A stretch of DNA of 64,000 bases from Luteolibacter rhizosphaerae (GTDB lineage: Bacteria; Verrucomicrobiota; Verrucomicrobiia; Verrucomicrobiales; Akkermansiaceae): contig NZ_JAPDDR010000014.1 in the NCBI RefSeq assembly GCF_025950095.1, forward strand, positions 62,879 through 126,878, given 5' to 3'. The position numbers and the translations under genes were made by a program. The notes beneath the pieces were generated by a model. That model had not been told where the DNA came from, searched no databases, and worked only from the letters and a program-made list of their open reading frames with translations. Of this stretch, positions 10,192 through 31,393 are shown piece by piece. Within the stretch, counting starts at the first letter, position 1, and each line of letters opens with the position of its first letter.

Positions 10192-12900
10192 TCACTCCAC
10201 CGCCACCGAGAACAACTCCCTACCCGTCGCCAGGCTCGTCGCCGTGAAGTAGAGCTTATCCCCCAACAGCTTCAGCTCCTGCGGCGCGCTGCCCTCCGGC
10301 CCCGGCAGGAGATCCCACACCAGCACCGTACCCGCTTCCGTGCCATCGCTCTTCCACAGCTCGCGACCGTGTTCATCGGTCTCCGCCGTGAAGTAAACCA
10401 CATTCCCCACCGCAATGAAGTTCGCGGGACTCGAGGACCTCGACCCGGGCCGGATGTCCTTCACCTGGCGCGATCCCCCCACGCTGCCATTCGCCACCCA
10501 CAGCTCCAGATCCGAACCCACCGAACCCCAGCCTTCATCCTTGGCTCCGCGATAGAACATCAAGCCGCCCGTCACGGCCGTATCGCCCGGCGAATCGGTA
10601 TGATACCGGCTCAGGTCCGGAATCAGCGGCTGCACCCCCTGCGGCGTGCCATCGCTGCGATACCACTGAAATGGCGCGCCGAAGCTCCCCATCGCCGCGA
10701 AAAGCTGCAGGCCGTCTAGATCCACCGAGAGCGACACATTCCCGGCCAGGAAAGTCACGTAGGGATTCCCGTAGCTCACCGTGCCAGCCTCCGTGCCATC
10801 GCTCCGCCACAGCTGCTCGTAATAGATCCCGCCCACCGAGAAGGCCAGTTGATCCCCGATCACCGCCAAGCTCCGCCGGGTGTTCGTGGATGTGCTCGCC
10901 TGCGGGAACTGCTTCACCCGCTCCGTGCCTTCCTCCGTGCCATCGCTGCGCCACAGCGCCAGGCTGCCGGAAGCCATGCCGGACATGAAGTAAAGCATGC
11001 CATTGAAAGCCACCAGCTCACCCGGCCGCGCCTGCGGTCGGGTAAAGTCCCAGGCCACCACCTGCGCCGTGCCCGCCGCCGTGCCATCCGTGCGCCACAG
11101 CCCGGACTTAAGCGGATCGGTCAAATCGTTCACGCGGTAGTAAAGCAAGTCACCCGCCACGGTGAAGTCGGACAGCTCTTGGTACTGCGTATGTCGTACC
11201 AAGCGCTTCGTCCCCTTGGCCGTGCCATCCGTGATCCAGACCTCCGCCGGAGCCAGGTTCAGCGAGGGCGTCGTGAAGAGCGCCTTCTCCCCCAGCTTGG
11301 CCGCGAAGTAATTCCCGCCCGTGCTCGCCAGCAGGCCCCTCGGCTTCCAGATCACCCGCGGACTTCCGTCCTCGCTCACGCGCCACAGCTTCGGGCTGGA
11401 GTAGCCCTCGCTGTAGGCGAAGGCCAGAATCGACCCGTTCACCGCTTCGTAGGAACCCTTCCAGCCGCTATCGAAAGCGCCCATGTTCCCGCCCGGCTCC
11501 GGCGTCGTCAGCGGCAGCGCACCCACGCCCTTCGGTTTCGTGATCCACAGCGCATTCTCCGGCGTGCCGCGTCCGGCGGCGAAGAAGAAGCGATCCTGCC
11601 AGGTCGCGTAGAGCGGACCGCTCCCGCCGAAGGCATGGTAGTCCTTCATCCGGCTCACCCGCTTCGTCCCCCGCGCCGTGCCGTCGCTGCGCCACATCTC
11701 CCAGCGCGTGTCCGCCCCCTGCTGCTGGTAGTACAGATAGCTACCCGCCACCTGCAGATGGACCGGACCGCCCACCGTGCGGATCCGCGGGCCCGTCACC
11801 GGTCGCGTGCCCTCCGGCGTGCCGTCCGTGCGCCACAGCATGTGGGAGCGCTCCGAGTAACCGCCAAAGTACAGGAACCTGTCCATCTCTACCAGCTCGC
11901 CCGGGGTGAATTGCACCTTCTTGTGCATCATCGGCAGCTGGTGCGTGCCCGCCGGCGTGCCATCCGTGTGCCAGAACTGGCGTGACAGACTCTCTGTCAC
12001 CACCACGAAGGTGAGCCCCTGCTCCCATGCCTTCATCTCATCCACCTCCCACCAGATGCCCGAGCCGATCCGCACCGCATCCGTGCCCTGCCGCGTGCAA
12101 GTCCACAGCTCCTCCACGCTATCCCCCTGGTAGCTCCGGCCGACCCGCAGGTAGAAGCGCGAATCCGTCATCTCGAAGGAGATCAGAGAGCCGCCATCTG
12201 TCAGCGCGCCCGCATCTACGATGCTCGTCGTACCAGCCGCCGTGCCATCGCTGCAGAAGATGCGATCCCCCTCTACCCCGAAATACATCTGCCCGTCCCT
12301 CTCCCGGAACGAATAGGCACCGGACTCCAGCCCCGGGACCAGCGGGCTCAGCGCCTGCGTGCCCGCCACCGTGCCATTGCTGAACCACAGCGCATAGGAC
12401 ACCCCGGGATTCTCATAGCGCACGCGGAAGAATACCCCGCCCGCCATACCGCCCTGCATCTGGATCTCCCCGGTCCCACCCTCCGGCGAAAGCGCCGCCG
12501 TATCCAGCAGCATCACCGTGCCTGCCGCCGTGCCATCCGTGATCCACAGCTTCTCCATCTGGCTCGCATCCTCCGTCACGAAGGCCACCTTCTCTCCCAC
12601 CTGCACCGGCCGCATCGGGTAGGAATTGCCCTGCCCCGGCTCGATGTCCATCAGCAGCCGTGTGCCACCCGTCGTGCCATCGCTGAACCACAGCTCATGA
12701 CCCTGCGCGATCGTCTTCATCGCGAAGACCACCCCGCCCTGCACCGGCATCACCCATTGGATCTGGGCATCGTGACCGGCCGGCGTGCGGTTCAGATCCG
12801 CCACCAACTGCGCTGCCGGACCGACCTGCGCCACCGCCTGCAGCGGCAGCATGGATGCAGCAAAGGCCAGCCCGGGAATGATAAAGGAACGGGGAGTCAT
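10192..12900 (-). CDS. Secreted ELWxxDGT-repeat protein, paralog 2
   Basis: 902 residues. The signal peptide (about 1-25, PGLAFAASMLPLQAVA core) is cleaved before QVGPAAQL. The mature start AQLVADLNRTPAGHDAQIQWVMP aligns with paralog 1 (AELVKDLNRTPGS..IEWVMP), so the two are homologous end to end. About 14-15 ELWxxDGTxxGT repeats follow, several degraded (RIFCSDGT, ELWVANGS). The last blade, HGRELWKSDGTEAGT, is the best conserved. No enzyme motif is seen. It is convergent with the arsenic operon; its promoter lies in 12901-13260. Confidence 0.93.
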   Translation of the reverse strand: MTPRSFIIPGLAFAASMLPLQAVAQVGPAAQLVADLNRTPAGHDAQIQWVMPVQGGVVFAMKTIAQGHELWFSDGTTGGTRLLMDIEPGQGNSYPMRPVQVGEKVAFVTEDASQMEKLWITDGTAAGTVMLLDTAALSPEGGTGEIQMQGGMAGGVFFRVRYENPGVSYALWFSNGTVAGTQALSPLVPGLESGAYSFRERDGQMYFGVEGDRIFCSDGTAAGTTSIVDAGALTDGGSLISFEMTDSRFYLRVGRSYQGDSVEELWTCTRQGTDAVRIGSGIWWEVDEMKAWEQGLTFVVVTESLSRQFWHTDGTPAGTHQLPMMHKKVQFTPGELVEMDRFLYFGGYSERSHMLWRTDGTPEGTRPVTGPRIRTVGGPVHLQVAGSYLYYQQQGADTRWEMWRSDGTARGTKRVSRMKDYHAFGGSGPLYATWQDRFFFAAGRGTPENALWITKPKGVGALPLTTPEPGGNMGAFDSGWKGSYEAVNGSILAFAYSEGYSSPKLWRVSEDGSPRVIWKPRGLLASTGGNYFAAKLGEKALFTTPSLNLAPAEVWITDGTAKGTKRLVRHTQYQELSDFTVAGDLLYYRVNDLTDPLKSGLWRTDGTAAGTAQVVAWDFTRPQARPGELVAFNGMLYFMSGMASGSLALWRSDGTEEGTERVKQFPQASTSTNTRRSLAVIGDQLAFSVGGIYYEQLWRSDGTEAGTVSYGNPYVTFLAGNVSLSVDLDGLQLFAAMGSFGAPFQWYRSDGTPQGVQPLIPDLSRYHTDSPGDTAVTGGLMFYRGAKDEGWGSVGSDLELWVANGSVGGSRQVKDIRPGSRSSSPANFIAVGNVVYFTAETDEHGRELWKSDGTEAGTVLVWDLLPGPEGSAPQELKLLGDKLYFTATSLATGRELFSVAVE

Positions 12901-13260: not shown

Positions 13261-15957
13261 TCACTCCCCATCGATCACATACAGCTCCCTCCCGATCGCC
13301 CGCCGCAGCGCATGGAAGTACAGCTTCCCATCCACCACCTTCAGATCTTCCGCATAGCTCCCCTCCGGGCCCGGCTCCACATCCGCCGCCAGCACCGTGC
13401 CCGCCTCCGTGCCATCCGTCTTCCACACCTCCAGCCCGTGCTCCGGGTGATATGCCGTGAAGTAAACCTGCCCGCCGAATGCCGTGAACCGCGAGGGCGA
13501 AGATGGATTCGTCCCCGGCCAAATGTTCTTCAAGCGGAAGGTCCCCGCCGCCGTGCCATCCGTCACCCAGGGCTCCACATCGCCATCCGCATCCACTCCC
13601 GGATAGTAGGCCTTGCCACCCGCCACCGTCACCTGGCTCTCGTAGCGCGCCAGATGATCCACCGTGACCCCGCCCTGCACGCGCTGCGTTCCCGCTGCCG
13701 TGCCATCGCTCAGCCACCACTGATACGGCTCGGTCGTCACCACGCCGCGCCCGAGGATAAGCTCCTTCCCGCCCAAATCATAAGACACGTCGATCGAGGC
13801 AAGCTGCGTCGCCACGTTGTAGACCGGTTGCACCTTCTGCGTGCCCGCCTCCGTACCATCGCTGGTCCACAGCTCTTCCGTCAGCGGCCGGCTCAGCGTG
13901 ATCGAGAGCCGGTTGCCGATCGCCTTCAGCCCCTCCGGCGTCCCGTCCTGCGGCTCCCATTGATCCACGACCATCACCGTGCCCGCCACCGTGCCATCGC
14001 TCTTCCACAGCTCGCGGCGGCCACCCGACTGCGCCGTGAGGAAGTAGAGCGTGCCGTTCAGGTTCGTCATCTCGTTGTGGACCGGGGCCGCATTATGGGC
14101 TGCATCGAGCTTCGTGGTGCCTGCCACCGTGCCATCCGTCACCCACAGCTCGTTCTCGTACTCCGCGGAGCCCGACATCACCGAGTAGAAGATCTTGTTC
14201 CCCACCGTCACGAACTGCTGCGGATATCCCTGCGCTCCCACGCTATCATGCTCCGAGAGACGCCGCGTCCCCTTCGCCGTGCCATTCGTGGTCCACACCT
14301 CGCGCGCTGAATCCCCCCTCAGGCGGAAGACCGCATTCGCACCCAGCGTACCGTGGAAGTCCAAGGTCGTGCCCGAGCTGGAGAGGAAGCTCGGCGTCTT
14401 CCAGATCGCCTTGGCCTTCCCCTTCGGGCTGATCGTCCAGAGCTCGTAGCCCTTGCCCCGGCCATCCGGGGTCATGATGAAGGACAGGAACTTCCCGTTT
14501 GCCGAGCCATAGGGCACGCCCTCCATCCCGCTGGAGGAGTAGGCATCGCCCGTAGTCTTCTCCGGCGTAGTCAAGCGCGTCACGCCCTTCGTCCCGCGGG
14601 TGCGCCAGAGCGCGTTGTCCGTCACGCCCGGGCCCTTCGCATAGTAGATCGAGCCGTTCGATTCCGCCACTTGTGCGCCCAGCGCCAGGGGATTCGCGTT
14701 CACCAGGCGGTCCACCCGCCGCGTGCCCTTCGTCGTCCCGTCCGTGCGCCACTGCTCCCAGAGATTCCCTTCCGTCAGATACTGGAAATACAGGAAGCCG
14801 CCGCCATCCACGAAGAGGTCGATCTCGCCATAGTTCGTCGTCCCGATCTCCCGCACCAGCTGCGTACCCTGCTCCGTACCATCCGTGCGGTAGAGCGCCA
14901 CGCCCGCTTCACTCCTCGCACCGAAGTAGAGATGCCCGTTCCACTCCAGCATCGCACCCATCGGCTGATAGCCGCTGCCCAGCGGGACCACGTGCGTGCC
15001 CGCCGCCGTTCCATCGCTGGTCCACAACGTGCGCACCAGCTGCTCATCCTCCAGCACCAGGAAGAGCTTGTCGCCCAGCGCCCCGCTCGCGCGGATATCC
15101 CAGTTCGCGGCCGATACCGCCGGCTGCACCTCGGTCAGATTCCCGCCCTCCAGATCGCAGGACCAGATCTCCGGCGGATTCAGATAGGGAGTCGCCACGA
15201 AATAGATCCGGCTGCCCGCGATGATCATGCGCGGATTGTAGGTCTCCTTGATCAACTCGATCTCCGCCAGCGCGCGCGTGCCTGCCAGCGTGCCATCGCT
15301 GCACCACAGCTCGCCGTCATTCGCCAGGAAGTAGAGCCGCCCGTTCGCCGCCTCCGCGTTCCATGCATCCTCGAAGCCCGTGCGCTCCGTGCCCGCCTGG
15401 TTCAGCGGATTCAGCAGACGCGTGCCCGCCGCCGTGCCATCGGTGAACCACAGCTCGTAGGGCAACTCCTCATTCACGAATGCCCGGAAGAACACGCCCT
15501 CGGCATTCGCGCCGAGCGTGCGTTCGATTCCCACCGCGTTCCCCGTCGCATGCTGCGTCACCTTCACCGTGCCGGCCTCCGTGCCATCCGTCACCCAGAT
15601 CTGCTTGCCGTCCTGCACCGTCGTCGCCGTGAAGAAGACCCGGTCCCCCGAGCGCAACAGACCTTCAGGATGCGAGCCTGCATTGCCCGGCACGATGTCC
15701 TTCAGCAGCGTCGTCGTCTTCAGCGCACCCCGGCTCACCCACAGCTCCGGCCCGTACGCCAGGCTGTCCTTCAAGAACACCACCCCGTTTGGCAGCGCCG
15801 TAATCCCGTCGATCCCCGCACCCATATTTCGCTGGCTCTTGTTCAGGTCCGCCACCAGCCGCGCTTCAGACTGGGCCCCGGCAGGCAGCGCCGCCATTGA
15901 CACGCAAGCGATTACCAGAGGAGACAGCAGGGAGAAACGGGAGATCGGGTGAATCAT
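13261..15957 (-). CDS. Secreted ELWxxDGT-repeat protein, paralog 3
   Basis: 898 residues with a signal peptide (about 1-29, ending AALPAGA-QS). The mature start ARLVADLNKSQRNMGAGIDG aligns with the other two paralogs. About 14 repeats are visible (ELWFTDGTAAGT, ELWKSDGTVAGT, EPWVTDGTAAGT, EVWKTDGTEAGT). It lies 360 bp upstream of paralog 2 in the same direction, so the two may be a tandem duplication, but the family B repeat between them and separate leaders suggest separate transcripts. Role unknown; expected extracellular beta-propeller. Confidence 0.93.
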   Translation of the reverse strand: MIHPISRFSLLSPLVIACVSMAALPAGAQSEARLVADLNKSQRNMGAGIDGITALPNGVVFLKDSLAYGPELWVSRGALKTTTLLKDIVPGNAGSHPEGLLRSGDRVFFTATTVQDGKQIWVTDGTEAGTVKVTQHATGNAVGIERTLGANAEGVFFRAFVNEELPYELWFTDGTAAGTRLLNPLNQAGTERTGFEDAWNAEAANGRLYFLANDGELWCSDGTLAGTRALAEIELIKETYNPRMIIAGSRIYFVATPYLNPPEIWSCDLEGGNLTEVQPAVSAANWDIRASGALGDKLFLVLEDEQLVRTLWTSDGTAAGTHVVPLGSGYQPMGAMLEWNGHLYFGARSEAGVALYRTDGTEQGTQLVREIGTTNYGEIDLFVDGGGFLYFQYLTEGNLWEQWRTDGTTKGTRRVDRLVNANPLALGAQVAESNGSIYYAKGPGVTDNALWRTRGTKGVTRLTTPEKTTGDAYSSSGMEGVPYGSANGKFLSFIMTPDGRGKGYELWTISPKGKAKAIWKTPSFLSSSGTTLDFHGTLGANAVFRLRGDSAREVWTTNGTAKGTRRLSEHDSVGAQGYPQQFVTVGNKIFYSVMSGSAEYENELWVTDGTVAGTTKLDAAHNAAPVHNEMTNLNGTLYFLTAQSGGRRELWKSDGTVAGTVMVVDQWEPQDGTPEGLKAIGNRLSITLSRPLTEELWTSDGTEAGTQKVQPVYNVATQLASIDVSYDLGGKELILGRGVVTTEPYQWWLSDGTAAGTQRVQGGVTVDHLARYESQVTVAGGKAYYPGVDADGDVEPWVTDGTAAGTFRLKNIWPGTNPSSPSRFTAFGGQVYFTAYHPEHGLEVWKTDGTEAGTVLAADVEPGPEGSYAEDLKVVDGKLYFHALRRAIGRELYVIDGE

Positions 15958-18321: not shown

Positions 18322-21219
18322 TCACCTCTCCCCCGGCAGCACCTCCAACACCTCATCAAACTCCCGGATCTTCCGCTCATTCTCCTCCAGCCTTTTCCTC
18401 ATCAGCTCCTCCCAATTCCCCAGCGCCGAGCGCAACCCGGCATCCTCGCTCACCGGCTTCTCCCCCCGCTCCGGTACCTTCCCCAGCGCCGCGATCTTCT
18501 CCCACTCCTTCTCCAGCGCCTGCTCCCAGCCACTCACCCTCCGTCGCGCAGAGATCAACTTCTCCCCGTGCACCGGCTCGCGTGCCGCCTGCAGCCCCGC
18601 CACCTCCGCCCGCGCCTCGTTCAAAACCTCGCGCACCTGCAGCAAACGCTGGAACACCGCCGCCACGTCCGCCCGCTCGAAGAAAATCCGGTGATGCCCC
18701 GACTCCCCGCAGCCATCCACCACCCGCAGCACCTGATCATAGGAAACACCTGCACCGATCGCCACCTCGATCGCCGGCCCGCCCTTCCCTCCGGACATGC
18801 CCGCCAGCTTCGCCCGCAGCGCCCTCTCCTCCAGCCGCTCCCCATCCAGCGCCACCCCGCCGCCGGCCAGCAGCCGCAGCTCCATCATCTTCGGCAGGAT
18901 CACCTCCGCCCCCTCGTCCTTCCACTCCGGCAGCGGCACATCCGCCCCCTCGATCACCTCCGGCGTCGTCTCCGTGTAGAAGCTCGCATTCGTCAGCCCC
19001 GCCTGCGTGCACAGATCCAGCACCGCCGTCACCGCGCTGTACTTCACCTCGCTCCCCGCCTCGATCATCACCGGCCGCCCCGGTCCCTCCGCGGAAAGCC
19101 GCTTCAGCTCTTCTAACAGACCGCTCCCATCCCGCTCTTGCCGGTTCACCGTCACCCCGCCATCCGGAGCGATCCGGATCCGCACCAGCTCCGGCACCCG
19201 CGACTCCATCGATTTCTCTAACAAACGCTCCGCCAGCTCGCGCGGCGACTCCGCTTCCACCTGCACCTTCGCCTTCTCATCCTTCGCCGCCGGCCTCCTC
19301 CCGTAGTCCAGCACCCGATACTGGACCATCTTCGGGTAATAGTCCTCCTGCAGGTCCAGCACCCCGCGCACCCCGTCCCGCGTCTGGAATGCCCAGATCC
19401 CCCGCGCCCGCCCGAAATTCCCGATCCCCGGCCGCAATTGCCAGGTCACCAGATCCAGATCCTCCGGGCGGATCAGCGCGAAATTCTTCCCGCTCCCCTC
19501 CGCCACCTTCAGGTCCACCGTGTTCCAGTTGCTCCCGTCGAAGTAGAGATCCGCGCCCCACTCCTCCATCCGCCGCTCGAAGCTCACCGGCGCCCAGTTA
19601 TAAGTGATCGCCGCTCCCGACTCCAGATCGATCGCCAACTTCACGCCCGGCTGCCCCACCATCTGGGAGGCCGCCTTCTCCTCATGCAGCCGCGTCTTCA
19701 TCGCCCGATACGGTGGATACCACTCGTAGCGCAGCGCATCGATCCCCGTGCGCGCCAGCGATAGCATCACCAGCAGCAGCACCACACCCAACGCCCAGCG
19801 CCCCTCGAAACTCTTCCGCGCCCGGATGCCTAACAGAATCCCCGCCACCCACAGCACCAGCACCGCACCCTTCACCACCAGACCGGTCGTGTCGTTCTTC
19901 AGCACCTCGTTCAGCCGGCCGAAGTAGGAGATCGCCGTCACCAAAACCGCGAATGCCGTGCACAGCCCCGCCGCGGATGCCGCCTTCCGCTGCCACCACG
20001 GCCGCTCATCCCGGCCATGCTCCCGCACATGCCTGCGATACCCCAGCCACGCCAGCACCGTGAAGCACGCCAGCGGCAGGAAATTCCCGCTCATGTAGGA
20101 GCCCGCCGCCACCAGGTGCGGCACCTCCGCCGCATACAGATACGATTGCGTCCACAGCCGGAAGACCGCCGCCACCAGCAGCACCACCCCGCCCGCCTTC
20201 AGAAACATCCGCCACGGCACCAGCCGCACCTTCACCTTCACCCGCTCCGGCTTCGCCGCCACCTCGGCAGCTGGTGGCTCCGGCGGCGGCATCGCCGGTG
20301 GCGGCGTCAGCATCACCTGCGTCACCATGCTCTTCACCTCGCTCACCTGCTGGAAGCGCAGCTCCGGCTTCGCCGCCAGCGAGCGCAGCACGATCTCGTC
20401 CAGCCGCACATCGATCTGCACCCGCCCGGATGGCACCGCACCCGCCGCCGGGCGCTCCCCCGTCAGCATCTCGTGCAGCACCACCCCCAGCGCATAGATA
20501 TCCGCCCGGTGATCCACCGCCTGCGCATGCGCCGCCTGCTCCGGCGCCATGTAGGCCGGCGTCCCCGAGCGGTCCGCCGCATCCCCCGCCATCGTCGCGA
20601 TCCCGAAGTCCGCGATCTTCACCCGACCCTCCCGGTCCAGCAGAATGTTCTCCGGCTTGATATCCCGGTGCACCACCCCGTGATCGTGCGCGAATTGCAG
20701 CGCATCGCAGATCGGCGGCACGATCGCCAGCGCCTGCTCGCTCTCCAGCCGCCCGTCCCGCAGCAGATCGCGCACATTCACGCCATCCACATACTCCATC
20801 ACGATGTAGTAGAGCTCCCCCGCCCGGCCGAAGTCGTGGATCGTCACGATGTTCGGGTGGTTCAGCCGCGCCAGCAGCTTCGCCTCCTTCTCGAAGCGCC
20901 CCGCGAAGCCCGCCTCATCCTGCCACTCCCCCGCCAGGATCTTCAGCGCCACCACCCGGTCCAGCGCCTTCTGCCGCGCCCGGTACACGATCCCCATCCC
21001 CCCGCGGCCCAGGCACTCCAGGATCTCGAATTGCGGGAACTTCTCCCGCAGATCCTCCGGCGATGGCGGCGGCTCCACCGGCACGCTTTCCCCCGTCGGC
21101 ATCGTCTGCGTCCGCAGGTTCATCGCCATCAGGCAGCGCGGACACAGGCCCGCCGCCGATGACGACAGCGGCGAATCGCAGCGCGGGCAAGAGGACGGGG
21201 AGGAAGACACATCAGCCAT
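18322..21219 (-). CDS. Membrane Ser/Thr protein kinase apparently fused to two ExbD-like domains
   Basis: 965 residues. Order: zinc ribbon (C11xxC14, C26xxC29); Hanks kinase about 64-300 with Gly loop LGRGGMGIVY (70-79), K93, HRDIKPEN (H184), DFG 204-206 and APE 225-227; then five membrane helices (about 338-357, 376-394, 414-433, 447-465, 475-490). The C-terminal part should be periplasmic. It holds two stretches (678-752 and 780-850) with the ExbD/TolR pattern: a beta strand with a G-V pair, a helix, then VKYSAVTAVLDLCTQAGL or VSYDQVLRVVDGCGESG. A coiled coil follows. It lies 30 bp after the ECF sigma gene, so the two should be one signalling unit. The ExbD assignment is my inference from pattern. 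Confidence 0.9.
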   Translation of the reverse strand: MADVSSSPSSCPRCDSPLSSSAAGLCPRCLMAMNLRTQTMPTGESVPVEPPPSPEDLREKFPQFEILECLGRGGMGIVYRARQKALDRVVALKILAGEWQDEAGFAGRFEKEAKLLARLNHPNIVTIHDFGRAGELYYIVMEYVDGVNVRDLLRDGRLESEQALAIVPPICDALQFAHDHGVVHRDIKPENILLDREGRVKIADFGIATMAGDAADRSGTPAYMAPEQAAHAQAVDHRADIYALGVVLHEMLTGERPAAGAVPSGRVQIDVRLDEIVLRSLAAKPELRFQQVSEVKSMVTQVMLTPPPAMPPPEPPAAEVAAKPERVKVKVRLVPWRMFLKAGGVVLLVAAVFRLWTQSYLYAAEVPHLVAAGSYMSGNFLPLACFTVLAWLGYRRHVREHGRDERPWWQRKAASAAGLCTAFAVLVTAISYFGRLNEVLKNDTTGLVVKGAVLVLWVAGILLGIRARKSFEGRWALGVVLLLVMLSLARTGIDALRYEWYPPYRAMKTRLHEEKAASQMVGQPGVKLAIDLESGAAITYNWAPVSFERRMEEWGADLYFDGSNWNTVDLKVAEGSGKNFALIRPEDLDLVTWQLRPGIGNFGRARGIWAFQTRDGVRGVLDLQEDYYPKMVQYRVLDYGRRPAAKDEKAKVQVEAESPRELAERLLEKSMESRVPELVRIRIAPDGGVTVNRQERDGSGLLEELKRLSAEGPGRPVMIEAGSEVKYSAVTAVLDLCTQAGLTNASFYTETTPEVIEGADVPLPEWKDEGAEVILPKMMELRLLAGGGVALDGERLEERALRAKLAGMSGGKGGPAIEVAIGAGVSYDQVLRVVDGCGESGHHRIFFERADVAAVFQRLLQVREVLNEARAEVAGLQAAREPVHGEKLISARRRVSGWEQALEKEWEKIAALGKVPERGEKPVSEDAGLRSALGNWEELMRKRLEENERKIREFDEVLEVLPGER

Positions 21220-21249
21220 ACCGGGAGATTCGCAAAAGACATCCCATCG

Positions 21250-21984
21250 TTACCGGGAAAGCGCCGCCATCAGCGCCTCCATCTCCTCATCCACCTCGGA
21301 GGCATCCACCACCGTGCGCGCCACCTCCTCCCGCACCAGCGCGCGGAAGCGCTTCCGCAGCCGGTGCGCCGCCACCCGCAGCGCCCCCTCCGTGCTCCCG
21401 CACTCCGCCGCCAGCGCCGCGTAATCCGTCTCGCCCCGCTCCGCTGTTAGAGTCGGCATCAGCCGCTCGAATTCCTCCGCCCGCCCCGTCGCCTTGTAGT
21501 CCTCTGCCAGCCGACCCATCGCCGCCTCCAGCATCGCCAGCGCCCAGCGCCGGTCGAAGAGTTCCTCCGGGCTCCGCGCACTCTCGTCCTCGTGCGTGTA
21601 CAGCCGCTCCGCCAGCTCGCCATCCAGCGCCAGCAGCTCGCGACCCCCACCGCGCTTCGCCGCCTGCTCGCGACGCCACTCCCCGATCAGGAAGCGCTTC
21701 AGCGTCGCCTGCAGGAAGCTCCGGAATCTCCCCCGCGCATCATCCGCCAGCCCCAGCGTTCCCCGCTCCAGCATCATCGCGAAGAACGCCTGCGCCAGAT
21801 CCTTCGCATCCTCGCTCGACTTCCCCGATCTCCGGATCACCGCATAGATCGGGAACCAATAGATCCCGCACAGCTCCTCCAGCGCATCCGCCGACTCCCC
21901 CCCGCCGGCCGCCACAACGAGCGACCACCGCGTGGTGGCAAAGAGAGGAGGACGGGTAGCCAAGGTGCCGCGCAGCATGAACAC
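21250..21984 (-). CDS. ECF-type RNA polymerase sigma factor, partner of the kinase
   Basis: 244 residues. It starts with the FATTRWSLVVAA motif typical of planctomycete/verrucomicrobial ECF factors encoded beside Ser/Thr kinases. Region 2 includes YWFPIYAVIRRSGKSSEDAKDLAQAFFAMML, and region 4 includes DYAALAAECGSTEGALRVAAHRLRKRF, the DNA-binding helix-turn-helix. No anti-sigma factor gene is adjacent; in such pairs activity is thought to be set by kinase phosphorylation. It is likely co-transcribed with the kinase gene 30 bp downstream. Confidence 0.92.
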   Translation of the reverse strand: MFMLRGTLATRPPLFATTRWSLVVAAGGGESADALEELCGIYWFPIYAVIRRSGKSSEDAKDLAQAFFAMMLERGTLGLADDARGRFRSFLQATLKRFLIGEWRREQAAKRGGGRELLALDGELAERLYTHEDESARSPEELFDRRWALAMLEAAMGRLAEDYKATGRAEEFERLMPTLTAERGETDYAALAAECGSTEGALRVAAHRLRKRFRALVREEVARTVVDASEVDEEMEALMAALSR

Positions 21985-22293: not shown

Positions 22294-22944
22294 CTACTCC
22301 TTCAACTTGATCTTCAACTTCCCCGGCTCCACCGACATCTCCTCGATCCCCGCCACCTTCCCGCCCTTGCCCCCGCCCAGGATCTCCCCGAGCAAATCCT
22401 TCCCCTTCAGCTGCGCCAGCCAATCGTTCGGCACGGAGACACCCCACACCGTCAGATCGTCCAGCACCAGGCTCGGCACCCCGTTCTCCGTCTTCACGAA
22501 AAAGCGCGCCCGCGCCTTCAGCCGCTTCCCGCCCACCACCGGCAGATCCTTGTCCAGATCCGTCTCCAGCCGCGCGTGCACCGCATCCGTCGCCAGCTCG
22601 AATTGCAGCTTGTCCCCCAGCGTCGTCTGCTCGTTCAGCAGCCCGTTCAGCTCCTTCTCCGTCAGGATGATTTCCCGCGAGCCCTTCTCATACGTCGGCT
22701 CCGCCGGCGTCGGCGTCGGCACCGCATCCGGCGCCTCCACCTGCGGGTAATCCCCGCGCTGGATCGCCTCCACCTTGTGCAGCACCACCTGCTTCTCCTC
22801 CGCGCTCAGCTGCACCGGCTTGATCGGGCGGTTGATCCACAGATACACCCCGATCCCCACCAGCAGCACCACGATCACGCTGATCAGCGCGGGCACCAGG
22901 CAGGACTTGCGGCGGGGCGGCACGGCAGGCGGCACTTCATTCAT
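22294..22944 (-). CDS. Single-pass membrane protein with a soluble C-terminal domain
   Basis: 216 residues. A Pro-rich basic start (PPAVPPRRKSCLVP) precedes one helix (ALISVIVVLLVGIGVYLWI). The extracytoplasmic part carries SREIILTEKELNGLLNEQT and LATDAVHARLETDLDKDLPVVGGKRLKARARF. The ITLTEKELNGLL-type segment followed by beta strands recalls the DUF2140/YpmS fold, but the match is only suggestive. Function unknown. It is a separate transcript ending in repeat mosaic 3. Confidence 0.7.
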   Translation of the reverse strand: MNEVPPAVPPRRKSCLVPALISVIVVLLVGIGVYLWINRPIKPVQLSAEEKQVVLHKVEAIQRGDYPQVEAPDAVPTPTPAEPTYEKGSREIILTEKELNGLLNEQTTLGDKLQFELATDAVHARLETDLDKDLPVVGGKRLKARARFFVKTENGVPSLVLDDLTVWGVSVPNDWLAQLKGKDLLGEILGGGKGGKVAGIEEMSVEPGKLKIKLKE

Positions 22945-28605: not shown

Positions 28606-30081
28606 TCAGACATTCGTCACCCTCTCCCAAAACCCCTCCCCCGCCTCCCGGTGCGCCCTCTTCTTCCCCGGCGCCATCTTCTCCCAGCTGCGCGCCATCA
28701 TCGAGAGCCGCGGATTCCCCGCGAAGAACTCGTGGTAGTCCCCAATGAAACTCCAGAACAGCCCGTCCCACACCTCGCACCACTCCCCCTTCGGATAGTA
28801 CGACATCTTCCGTACATAATTCGACCCGCTCAAGTAGGGCTTCGTCGTGAAAGTCCCGCCATCCGCGAACTGCGACATCCCGTACACATTCGGCACCATC
28901 ACCCAATCGTACGCATCCACGAACAACTCCATGAACCAGCGGTAAACCTCGTCCGGGTGGATCCGGCACAGCAGCATGAAATTCCCCAGCACCATCAGCC
29001 GCTCGATGTGGTGGCACCACCCGTGATCCAGCACCCGCCGGATCGTATCGTCCACCGGCGGGATCCCCGTCGTCCCCGTGTAAAAGGCCTTCGGCATCTT
29101 CCGCCGGAAGCCCCAGAAGTTCCCGTTCCGGATCTCCACCCCGCGGTGCCGGTAGATCCCCGCCATGAACTCCCGCCAGCCGATCACCTGCCGGACGAAG
29201 CCCTCCAGCGAGTTCAGCGGCACCTTCGCCTCCGCCGCCTTCGCCAGCGCCCGCTCCACCATCTCCTCCGGCGCCACCAGCCCGATGTTCAGCGCCGGCG
29301 TCATCACCGAATGGAACAGCACCCGGTGGTTCCGCGAGATCGCATCCTCGTAGGCACCGAAGTCCGCCAACCGCTCCTCGATGAAGCGGTCCAGCCACGC
29401 CAGAGCCTGCCGCCGCGTCACCGGATATCCGAAGCGCGCCGTCCCGCCCGGATTATCGGGGAAGTGCTTCTCCACATACGCGATCGCCTCCGCCACTACC
29501 TCGCCCGGCTTCACCTGCGGCTCTCCCGGCGCCAGGTGATCCTCAGGAAAGCGCTGCCGGTTCTCCTCGTCATAGGACCAGCGCCCGCCCTGCGGCGAAC
29601 CGTCCGCATTCACCAGGATCCCCAGCGCCTGCCGCTGCTCCTTGTAGAAGCTCGCCATAAAGGGCTTCTTCCGCTCCGGCCCCGTATGCTTCTCCAGCAG
29701 CTCCGGATCGCTCAGGAAATTCGGCGATGGCTTCACCTCCAGCTCGATCCCCCGCCCTTCGGCAAATCTCCTGATCCGCCGCATCAGCACGTCATCCACC
29801 GGATCCACCACCACCACCCGCTTCACCGCCTGCGACAGCCCCTTCTCTAACAGATTCTCGGACGCCTCCACATAGTGCAGGTCCGCCTTCCCCTCCGCCC
29901 AGGCCTTCATGCTCGCCCGGTGCAGCACCAGCCGCTGCTTGTGCACCGCCAGCGGCCAGCGCCGGTCGTTCCCGAAGAACAGCGGATCCTCGATTAGATA
30001 AGTCCTCCTCCCCTCCGCCAGCGCCGGATGCTTTGCATAAAGCTGGTGAGGATAAACCAGCGCGACCGTTCCTTCTTTCAT
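28606..30081 (-). CDS. Cryptochrome/photolyase of the FeS-BCP (PhrB-like) clade lacking two cluster cysteines
   Basis: 491 residues. It matches bacterial (6-4) photolyase/CryPro proteins: DPVDDVLMRRIRRFAEGRGI, SPQGGRWSYDEENRQ, GWREFMAGIYRHRG, GWCHHIERLMVLGNFMLL and YGMSQFADGG. Such enzymes bind FAD and repair UV lesions with light. Of the four [4Fe-4S] ligands in PhrB, C356 and C435 have counterparts. The NYCxGC pair is replaced by SYYPKGE (residues 427-433), and the loop after it is about ten residues short. A cluster is therefore unlikely. It overlaps the flavin reductase gene by 4 bp and is last in a three-gene operon. Confidence 0.92.
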   Translation of the reverse strand: MKEGTVALVYPHQLYAKHPALAEGRRTYLIEDPLFFGNDRRWPLAVHKQRLVLHRASMKAWAEGKADLHYVEASENLLEKGLSQAVKRVVVVDPVDDVLMRRIRRFAEGRGIELEVKPSPNFLSDPELLEKHTGPERKKPFMASFYKEQRQALGILVNADGSPQGGRWSYDEENRQRFPEDHLAPGEPQVKPGEVVAEAIAYVEKHFPDNPGGTARFGYPVTRRQALAWLDRFIEERLADFGAYEDAISRNHRVLFHSVMTPALNIGLVAPEEMVERALAKAAEAKVPLNSLEGFVRQVIGWREFMAGIYRHRGVEIRNGNFWGFRRKMPKAFYTGTTGIPPVDDTIRRVLDHGWCHHIERLMVLGNFMLLCRIHPDEVYRWFMELFVDAYDWVMVPNVYGMSQFADGGTFTTKPYLSGSNYVRKMSYYPKGEWCEVWDGLFWSFIGDYHEFFAGNPRLSMMARSWEKMAPGKKRAHREAGEGFWERVTNV

Positions 30082-30692
30082 CGGGCCTTCGCATAAGGCA
30101 GCCGCTCCAGCGGCGTGATTCCGAAATACGTGTCCAGCGCCGTCGAACCCAGAGCGCCCAGCGCGCTCAGATCGATCGACCCGTCCTCCGCAAGCTCCGT
30201 CGTGGCGAGCTGCACCACTTCCACGCTCCCGATGATGAGTTTCGTACCGTTCATGGGGATGTCGATGATCTCCGCCAGCCGCAGCCCCAGCCGGAAGCGC
30301 GACTCCGCGACGAAGGGTGCGGCGAACCCATCCTCATAATGCTCGCTCAATCCGGTCGCCGCGAACTCGGACACCTCCTTCGGATACCGCGCCGAGCATT
30401 GGTGCGCCTGCCGCATTATCCCCTCGTGCAAGTGGTTCAGCGTCCAGCAACCGGTCTCGATGAGGTTCGCCAGCGTGTGACGCTCCACCACATCCGGTCG
30501 CGTCACCATCCCGAGCAGCACCGGATTCGATCCGAGATGCACGACGCTGGAAAAGGGCGCCAGGTTGGTGGCACCGGCGGCATCCCGGGTGCCAACGAGC
30601 GCCACGGGTTTGATCCCGGGCAGGGAGGTGGCGAATTGGACCCGCACCAGCTTGTCCATGGCCGCGATATCGACGGAGCGGAGAGTAATCAT
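30078..30692 (-). CDS. Flavin reductase-like FMN-binding split-barrel protein
   Basis: 204 residues. It has the split-barrel pattern PVALVGTRDAAGATNLAPFSSV, NPVLLGMVTRPD, TLANLIETGCWTLNHL and RLGLRLAEIIDIPMNGTKLI of the flavin reductase / DIM6-NTAB family. It should bind FMN (or FAD) in the cytoplasm. It overlaps the photolyase gene (30078-30081) and the SDR gene (30689-30692) by 4 bp each, a strongly coupled operon. A plausible job is to supply or reduce flavin for the photolyase; this is inference. Confidence 0.87.
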   Translation of the reverse strand: MITLRSVDIAAMDKLVRVQFATSLPGIKPVALVGTRDAAGATNLAPFSSVVHLGSNPVLLGMVTRPDVVERHTLANLIETGCWTLNHLHEGIMRQAHQCSARYPKEVSEFAATGLSEHYEDGFAAPFVAESRFRLGLRLAEIIDIPMNGTKLIIGSVEVVQLATTELAEDGSIDLSALGALGSTALDTYFGITPLERLPYAKAR

Positions 30693-31393
30693 GAGAAGAG
30701 TCGCAGTGAAGAAATCCCGCCATCCGGCCGCAGGATCTGGCCGCTCATGGAACGCGCAGCGTCCGAAAGCAGGAACAGCACCAGCTCCGCCACCTCCCCG
30801 GCGCTGCCTACCCGCTGCAGCGGATGACGCTTCGCCGCGGCCTCCCGCTTCGCCTCACCGTTCAATAGCATGGCCGCCAGCGGCGTATCTGTCAGGGACG
30901 GGGCGATCACGTTCACCCGGATTCCCGGTGCCAGCTCCGCCGCCAGCGCCCGTGCTAGGCCCTCCACCGCCCCCTTGGCCGCTGCTACCGAGGCATGAAA
31001 TGCCATTCCCTGCGCCACTGCCACGGTCGAGAACAGGACGATCGAAGCATCCCCCGACCTCTTCAAAGCTGGCAGCGCCGCCTGAACCGCCGCCACCGCG
31101 CCAAGCAAGTTCACCTCCAAATCCCGCCGGAAGTCATCCGCCGTCAAACGGGCGAATGGCTTCAATTGGATCGTTCCCGGGAAGTAAACCAAGCCGTCCA
31201 ACGGCTCCGCCAAAAGCACCTCATCCAATGCCGGCTCCTCAGCCTCGAAGGGCAGCACCGGGATCCCCAGCGCCGCCAGAGCTTCCGGCTTCCGCGCCGT
31301 GGCTTTCACCCGGTGACCCGCCGCCAGCGCCGCCTCCGCGGTCGCCAGCCCGATACCCGATCCCGCACCGACCAAGAGGATGTTCTTCGGCAT
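30689..31393 (-). CDS. Short-chain dehydrogenase/reductase without the catalytic tyrosine
   Basis: 234 residues. The Rossmann motif is VGAGSGIGLATAE (8-20), the NNAG region is replaced by VYFPGTIQ, and S122 (FSTVAVAQG) is in place. The catalytic YxxxK reads VAAAK (136-140): K140 is kept and Y is V136. PSLTDTPLAA and PDGGISSLRLF close the fold. Either it is catalytically altered or it uses another residue (H133 is near). It is the first gene of the coupled SDR / flavin reductase / photolyase operon, a combination that points to a role linked to the photolyase. Confidence 0.88.
   Translation of the reverse strand: MPKNILLVGAGSGIGLATAEAALAAGHRVKATARKPEALAALGIPVLPFEAEEPALDEVLLAEPLDGLVYFPGTIQLKPFARLTADDFRRDLEVNLLGAVAAVQAALPALKRSGDASIVLFSTVAVAQGMAFHASVAAAKGAVEGLARALAAELAPGIRVNVIAPSLTDTPLAAMLLNGEAKREAAAKRHPLQRVGSAGEVAELVLFLLSDAARSMSGQILRPDGGISSLRLFS

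Follow-up and report, generated by a model that had tools for sequence, protein, structure and literature searches.

A membrane Ser/Thr kinase with a tandem ExbD-type ectodomain, encoded beside an ECF-type sigma factor gene in Luteolibacter rhizosphaerae

ExbD and TolR are stator parts of envelope motors. The window analysed here (a 64,000-nucleotide stretch of Luteolibacter rhizosphaerae DNA) encodes a protein in which domains of this type are attached to a membrane Ser/Thr kinase (965 aa, ATG start; positions 18322-21219, identified by its ORF and Pfam matches; this and all features below are on the reverse strand). What would a piece of an envelope motor do on a receptor kinase, and is such an arrangement new?

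The kinase ORF is intact and lies 30 bp downstream of a gene for an ECF-type sigma factor (21250-21984; 244 aa, GTG start), which is the first gene of the pair. The sigma factor has the Pfam domain Sigma70_ECF (E-value: 3.1e-05, 24.4 bits against a cut-off of 21.1) and relatives that adjoin related kinases; its match to the NCBIfam sigma70-ECF model TIGR02937 (6.3e-08, 32.4 bits) is under that model's cut-off of 42.9. Both ORFs are thus found where the original prediction had placed a Ser/Thr kinase and its sigma factor, each with a Pfam match. The kinase domain (residues 65-296, 20332-21027; Pkinase E-value: 3.2e-51) has the glycine loop, catalytic Lys, HRD, DFG and APE motifs of a Hanks-type Ser/Thr receptor kinase, and K93, E112, HRD 184-186, DFG 204-206 and APE 225-227 are invariant in a five-row alignment. 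NF033483 also matches this domain, below its cut-off. At the N-terminus is a four-cysteine zinc-ribbon-like motif (residues 11-30, 21130-21189) whose cysteines are nearly invariant (at least 90%) across 34 related kinases; it matches Pfam DZR_2 at only 0.13.

The receptor layout of this protein (kinase cytoplasmic, membrane helices, sensor extracytoplasmic) is a prediction from five helices and their loop charges. The helices (residues 338-493, 19741-20208) correspond to hydrophobic segments at 338-356, 376-394, 416-434, 447-465 and 475-493, the second of which is weak on the Kyte-Doolittle scale (1.23) and clearer on GES (1.57). The four inter-helix loops contain 0, 7, 2 and 4 Lys and Arg residues, a pattern that fits a kinase inside and a C-terminus outside; the 4 Lys and Arg in the first 20 residues past the last helix are of no help to that reading. 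Because hydropathy and loop charge give five helices, the ExbD-bearing C-terminal part is predicted to be extracytoplasmic. An even count, which the original prediction recognized would place this part in the cytoplasm, is not what the segments indicate. A scan of related kinases gave seven strong segments in L070 and three in L086, odd numbers like the five here, and an ambiguous count in L073. No Asp or Glu occurs in the five helices. In 77 genomes the membrane region matched itself and, weakly, three other sequences, which were not used.

The two helix motifs quoted in the original prediction are present in the kinase sequence, and its proposal of two ExbD/TolR periplasmic domains is borne out by both profile search and predicted fold. 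Pfam ExbD (PF02472) matches the protein in two stretches (E-value: 1.7e-17, 64.1 bits against a cut-off of 25.4), and in a six-frame search of the organism's own genome each domain alone is above the cut-off (40.3 and 31.5 bits). Domain 1 occupies residues 672-754 (18958-19206) and domain 2 (31.5 bits) residues 772-852 (18664-18906). In the AlphaFold2 model (pTM 0.45) the two share their order of strands and helices at a pLDDT of about 88-97: domain 1 has 94-97 in blocks of ten, and domain 2, 100 residues further on, has 88-95 with the order E-E-E-H-E-H-E. Residues 670-860 are therefore predicted to adopt an ExbD/TolR fold and not an unrelated one. The domain 1 model matches solved TolR (5by4; Z 13.0, rmsd 1.4, 77 aa) and solved ExbD (Z 12.1), with a low identity to solved ExbD/TolR structures of 16-20%. 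The fold search listed each entry once and every ExbD/TolR row fell on domain 1, so domain 2 has no PDB match of its own. The sixth ExbD-like unit of the relative L070, the second member of its pair, matches 8vgd (Z 11.7).

The ExbD matches begin at profile position 35 or later, and the membrane-spanning helix at the N-terminus of ExbD, which bears the motor aspartate, is absent. The ExbD part is accordingly a captured periplasmic module and not a motor part; since the motor half of ExbD is missing, a direct place for the kinase in an ExbB ring is unlikely. The pairing of two domains in one chain need not mimic the ExbD dimer. Two further regions make up the ectodomain. The juxtamembrane part (about residues 501-661, 19237-19719) has a pLDDT mostly below 60, no assigned fold and no convincing relative in 145 genomes. 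A weak match to it in G387 (1.5e-4) belongs to a non-kinase protein, read as an FG-GAP-type repeat, and was treated as chance. The C-terminal part (residues 853-960, 18340-18663) is modelled as long helices, possibly a coiled coil (355-383, 387-418 and 430-465 in model numbering).

Pairs of this sort, a kinase with a sigma factor, are frequent in Verrucomicrobiota and Planctomycetota; their ectodomains vary, and for most of these no input is known to us. Such pairs had been described as known in this phylum, and of the 45 closest kinase loci 30 do have a sigma gene on the same strand no more than 300 bp away. All six related sigma loci of the organism's own genome lie close to one of 21 kinase places, at 5 kb or less and in five cases at 1.4 kb or less. 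The orthologous sigma gene of G396 (71% identity) is 5.7 kb from the kinase on the opposite strand, and so does not adjoin it; another sigma gene is 4.5 kb away. None of the ORFs from 80 loci found by the kinase search has an ExbD match. Together with the widespread pairing, this indicates that the receptor kinase belongs to a known kind and that its sensor is rare.

The combination was found in three further proteins of the same family, L070 with six ExbD-like units and two with a single unit; among the matches listed, at least 4 of the family's 260 genomes have it. No description of it was found among the published titles and abstracts searched. The suggestion of a new architecture is best applied to the rare ExbD sensor module and not to the protein that carries it, which is a receptor kinase of a known kind. 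The kinase's paralogue L077 in the same genome (64% kinase identity) has a C-terminus without an ExbD match, and the kinase tree needs two changes of ExbD label. These changes and the duplication by pairs of the L070 units suggest that the module is used. Units 1-4 of L070 are modelled mostly at moderate pLDDT and score weakly with the first profile; a wider profile, built partly from the L070 units themselves, found units 1 and 3 better (1.3e-19 and 6.7e-16) and units 2 and 4 as short weak pieces. A tree of ExbD domains (61 rows, 78 columns, with the row L090, labelled standalone, being window kinase domain 2) gave no resolution and long branches for the kinase rows, and no donor ExbD was inferred. 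Other candidates were set aside: in G007, G090, G104, G134, G214, G264, G387, G389, G397 and G419 the ExbD-bearing ORF resembles the kinase in its ExbD part only, and a long frame with an ExbD match in G392 had no BLAST match to the kinase at 1e-3. ExbD matches also lie within a 347-aa frame in G304 and a 622-aa frame in G858. A first scan of genome contigs with the whole kinase as query gave no relative.

The proposed model, which we consider somewhat probable, is an envelope-sensing receptor kinase. The ExbD pair would act as a ligand-binding and dimerizing module. This role is inferred because the periplasmic domains of ExbD and TolR dimerize in solved structures and because the ExbD dimer binds a TonB strand between its two protomers and contacts peptidoglycan (PMC10771500, PMC10907165). 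A change in envelope state would rearrange the ExbD pair or the kinase dimers and thereby turn kinase activity on or off. The neighbouring sigma factor would then be activated by the kinase, directly or via another target, and would transcribe an envelope-response regulon. The most likely input, in our view, is a peptidoglycan glycan or extended peptide at the inner-membrane face.

It is possible, though rather unlikely, that the ExbD domains are a scaffold only: the tandem pair and the long C-terminal helices would hold kinase dimers together, and the sensor would be residues 501-661 or the membrane helices. The dimeric state of ExbD and TolR fits this reading, as do the modelled C-terminal helices and the kinase-specific look of the two candidate sensor regions, which have no convincing relatives in the searched genomes. 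However, two label changes on the kinase tree and three pairs in one kinase are more than a simple dimerizer needs; the single unit of two relatives fits either view. A wider form of the envelope-sensing model appears unlikely as a whole, namely that Ser/Thr kinases have at least twice captured a Ton/Tol periplasmic domain as a sensor, duplicated it as a pair and expanded it to six, and that the pair, by recognizing peptidoglycan or a TonB/TolA-like strand, links the state of the envelope or motor to an ECF regulon through phosphorylation. Quite improbable is a docking role, in which the ExbD pair would bind TonB/TolA-like proteins or the cell's own Ton/Tol motors and let the kinase report how active, or how much in demand, the motors are. 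ExbD occurs at nine further places in the genome, and the ExbD periplasmic domain forms a 2:1 complex with a TonB D-box strand (PMC10907165), but the part with the transmembrane aspartate is missing and a scan of 8 neighbouring ORFs (22294-22944 and 7 others) gave no ExbB/TolQ-like match. Least credible, and very improbable, is a four-helix protein with a cytoplasmic C-terminus and an ExbD-like fold in unrelated use, for which the weak second helix and the basic residues past the last helix speak, and against which stand the 7 Lys and Arg after the second helix with 0 before it and the odd counts in three kinases with differing membrane parts.

The envelope-sensing model suggests that a motor's periplasmic module has been reused as a cell-envelope sensor on a membrane kinase. 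If kinases also use the ExbD periplasmic domain as a stand-alone sensor, it would rank with PASTA and LysM as a general module for envelope recognition, and the four kinases with one, two or six units are natural constructs for testing what the domain recognizes without a motor.

PASTA kinases such as PknB have a Hanks kinase and, outside the cell, repeats of a module that binds envelope material; the NF033483 match of the kinase domain here, below the cut-off, is a further point of likeness. They have PASTA domains and one helix, whereas the window kinase has ExbD-type domains and five predicted helices. ECF59, ECF61, ECF62 and ECF217 (Planctomycetes examples) are listed in PMC8999054 as phosphorylation-regulated ECF sigma factors; the window pair, with its 30 bp gap, shares their kinase adjacency, a likeness in gene pairing. 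PknS-EcfK of Xanthomonas citri and PknT-EcfP of Vibrio parahaemolyticus, which pair an ECF43 sigma factor with a Ser/Thr kinase, have, as here, the kinase near an ECF sigma factor and no anti-sigma factor, and PknS, which phosphorylates EcfK (PMC13147305), is like the window kinase (by prediction) transmembrane with an extracytoplasmic sensor (PMC13147305, PMC8999054). The PknS sensor is TPR and not ExbD-type. In ECF43 sigma factors the acidic DxxD motif is replaced and a Thr is phosphorylated (QTTA/STTA), whereas the window sigma factor retains DAKD, so direct activation by the published ECF43 route is not supported. The G396 orthologue has DSQD, and for the nearest sigma factor in 35 loci the motif was read fully in 33 (including DAQD in 9, DAED in 8, DARD in 4 and DAKD in 2), with 1 gapped and 1 unread. 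With ExbD and TolR of the Ton and Tol-Pal systems the window kinase has the periplasmic domain in common, by Pfam match and predicted fold. It differs from them in lacking their single N-terminal helix with its aspartate and in having two tandem copies of the domain, which are joined to a kinase at a distance of about 180 residues from its last membrane helix.

The kinase gene (18322-21219, minus strand) encodes a 965-aa protein and starts 30 bp after an upstream ORF encoding a 244-aa sigma factor (21250-21984, minus strand). Residues 65-296 of the kinase have the Pfam domain Pkinase (E-value: 3.2e-51). The protein also matches ExbD PF02472 in two stretches (E-value: 1.7e-17; 64.1 bits against a cut-off of 25.4), so that the original prediction of a kinase with two ExbD-like domains beside its sigma factor is upheld. 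Of 11 PF02472 places found in a six-frame search of the source genome, two are inside this ORF; taken singly, these stretches score 40.3 and 31.5 bits, each above the cut-off. The NCBIfam TolR match is weak (4e-06) and below its cut-off. The sigma factor passes the Pfam Sigma70_ECF cut-off (24.4 bits against 21.1) and misses that of NCBIfam sigma70-ECF. The sigma gene is preceded by an ORF in the same orientation (22294-22944, minus strand) that encodes a 216-aa protein with one apparent N-terminal membrane anchor and no Pfam match even at an E-value of 1.

The fold of the ectodomain was predicted with AlphaFold2 from an alignment of residues 496-965 (26 rows from fetched loci). In the model, residues 679-748 and 779-847 share one secondary-structure order (strand, strand, strand, helix, strand, helix, strand) at an offset of 100 residues. 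Averaged over blocks of ten residues, pLDDT is 94-97 for the first domain and 88-95 for the second. Residues 496-655 are modelled with low confidence, and long helices form the end of the protein. In a Foldseek search with this model, ranks 1-4 and 6 are ExbD chains and rank 5 is TolR 5by4. Six ExbD/TolR entries head the VIA-align 2 list for the first domain, which aligns to TolR 5by4 with Z 13.0 (rmsd 1.4, 77 residues, 18% identity) and to ExbD 8p9r with Z 12.1. ExbD chains are also the best PDB sequence matches to a profile of five kinase repeats (6.5e-05). Profile search and structure prediction thus both agree with the ExbD/TolR assignment.

Five hydrophobic segments are found between the kinase domain and the ectodomain, and the loops between them contain 0, 7, 2 and 4 lysines and arginines. 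Such charges would be expected if the kinase domain lies inside and the ectodomain outside; the four such residues in the 20 positions after the last helix are neutral or slightly against this reading. The odd helix count originally proposed, with an extracytoplasmic ExbD part, is therefore retained as the predicted topology. None of the five helices contains Asp or Glu; the window kinase thus lacks the ion-path part of ExbD. The membrane parts differ among relatives: L070, the ExbD kinase of genome G396, has seven strong hydrophobic segments and L086, that of G549, has three (both odd counts), while L073, that of G251, has two clear segments and a glycine-rich hydrophobic stretch of uncertain count. 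Two more listed segments before the seven of L070 were discounted as proline/alanine-rich linkers. Glycine-rich repeats with hydrophobic GG units follow the kinase domain in L073 (residues 370-450) and in L077, a kinase paralogue from the source genome (residues 350-430).

L070 (1310 aa) has six ExbD-like units. Pfam ExbD matches it in two stretches (1.4e-22), and the first repeat profile scores units 5 and 6 high (both are in the profile) and units 1-4 weakly. All six appear in order in its AlphaFold2 model, units 1-4 mostly with moderate confidence. By alignment score, units 2 and 4 are mutual best matches and the best match of unit 3 is unit 1; unit 5 matches the first domain of the window kinase at 41%. 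These unit-to-unit matches suggest that duplication in L070 probably went by pairs, and that the ExbD pair probably predates the split of the two kinases. An orthologue of the window sigma factor (71% identity) is encoded 5.7 kb from L070 on the opposite strand, and a second sigma factor 4.5 kb away. A LysM protein (L070:5057-6193, minus strand), encoded 60 bp downstream of this kinase, is a possible peptidoglycan partner; found in one genome only, it hints weakly at the cell wall.

The other two relatives have a single ExbD. L073 combines it with SecDF_P1_head and DUF4019; one intervening gene separates this kinase gene from its sigma gene, which has the same orientation. L086 (L086:3348-7073, plus strand) has DUF4019 and, between membrane helices, a Wzz-like segment (a weak match below its cut-off); its sigma gene follows 1.1 kb downstream in the same orientation. 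The sigma genes of all three relatives are near, though adjacency is not constant. In a kinase tree of 47 rows (quick method, SH-aLRT support only), the window and G396 kinases group together with support of 99, apart from a second group formed by the G251 and G549 kinases (support of 91). The ExbD label needs two changes on this tree, and its starred branches force two; this may reflect two gains of ExbD, as opposed to a single gain followed by many losses.

With the C-terminal part as query, matches were found in 115 of 387 genomes drawn from the phylum (up to four candidates scored per genome). Among the matches listed, only the source genome and G251 have the match in a frame of more than 600 aa; the remaining frames are under 500 aa and are taken as mainly ordinary ExbD genes. 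G396 was added by a search of 57 relatives, and G549 by a kinase-repeat profile over 260 genomes of the family, in which high scores of the included kinases arise partly by construction. Two more long frames from the search of relatives, in G389 and G397, turned out on closer examination to hold only short ExbD ORFs. Among the matches listed in 288 order and 365 class genomes, the same four genomes alone have a frame of more than 700 aa, giving at least four kinase-ExbD genomes among the matches listed in the family, order and class searches. Among the papers listed in open-access PubMed Central searches for ExbD with kinases, no title or abstract describes the fusion; domain-architecture databases may list it uncommented.

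A search of kinase domains against named genome contigs (best 80 loci taken) gave five closest named loci that are all Verrucomicrobiota by title or name. For pairing, the 45 loci that share 44.9% identity or more across 200 residues were kept (by title, three Streptomyces and one other actinobacterium among them) and 35, including 15 Streptomyces, were dropped. A related sigma factor is in 35 of the 45, and in 30 it is encoded no more than 300 bp away in the same orientation. Each of the six related sigma loci in the source genome has one of 21 kinase places nearby, at up to 1.4 kb for five of them and at 4.6 kb for the sixth. One related sigma gene near a kinase there (G000:C21:27490-28202, plus strand) appears split into two overlapping frames. 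At 1e-3, the ExbD profile matched none of 2757 ORFs of at least 90 aa in the best 80 kinase loci; as a control, it detected the four ExbD kinases together with 56 of the 57 loci L013-L069 (many of these loci had gone into the profile) and gave no match in L077. Pfam partners varied in 34 kinases of the kinase-sigma group (tally of 25 of 50 families): M23 peptidase and DUF4019 in two each, and Poly_export, SecDF_P1_head, TPR, ankyrin and others in one each. Parts of envelope machines (Wzz-like, ExbD, SecDF_P1_head, Poly_export and M23) seem to be a recurring kind of kinase ectodomain within the group.

Elsewhere in the window, two tandem, secreted-looking proteins of ~900 aa (10192-12900 and 13261-15957, minus strand; 36% identical) are made up of ELWxxDGTxxGT-type repeats, with no Pfam family above cut-off. 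A three-gene run (28606-31393, minus strand) encodes a photolyase-related protein, a flavin reductase-like protein and a short-chain dehydrogenase.

Solved ExbD periplasmic domains are described as dimers with more than one state, in which a single TonB strand is held between the two protomers and peptidoglycan glycan is contacted; the dimers switch from state to state (PMC10771500, PMC10907165); TolR is described as a strand-swapped dimer linked to peptidoglycan (PMC4646322). The tandem ExbD pair could form a dimer-like unit inside one chain, or it could draw two kinases together. In Xanthomonas, a transmembrane kinase is reported to phosphorylate its neighbour ECF sigma factor (PMC13147305). 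The window sigma factor, in contrast, retains an acidic motif, DAKD, which reads DSQD in the G396 orthologue; this gives no support to activation via the same site, and a different site or target would be needed. According to a review, kinase-linked ECF groups outside ECF43 keep DAED-like motifs, and their mechanism may differ (PMC8999054).
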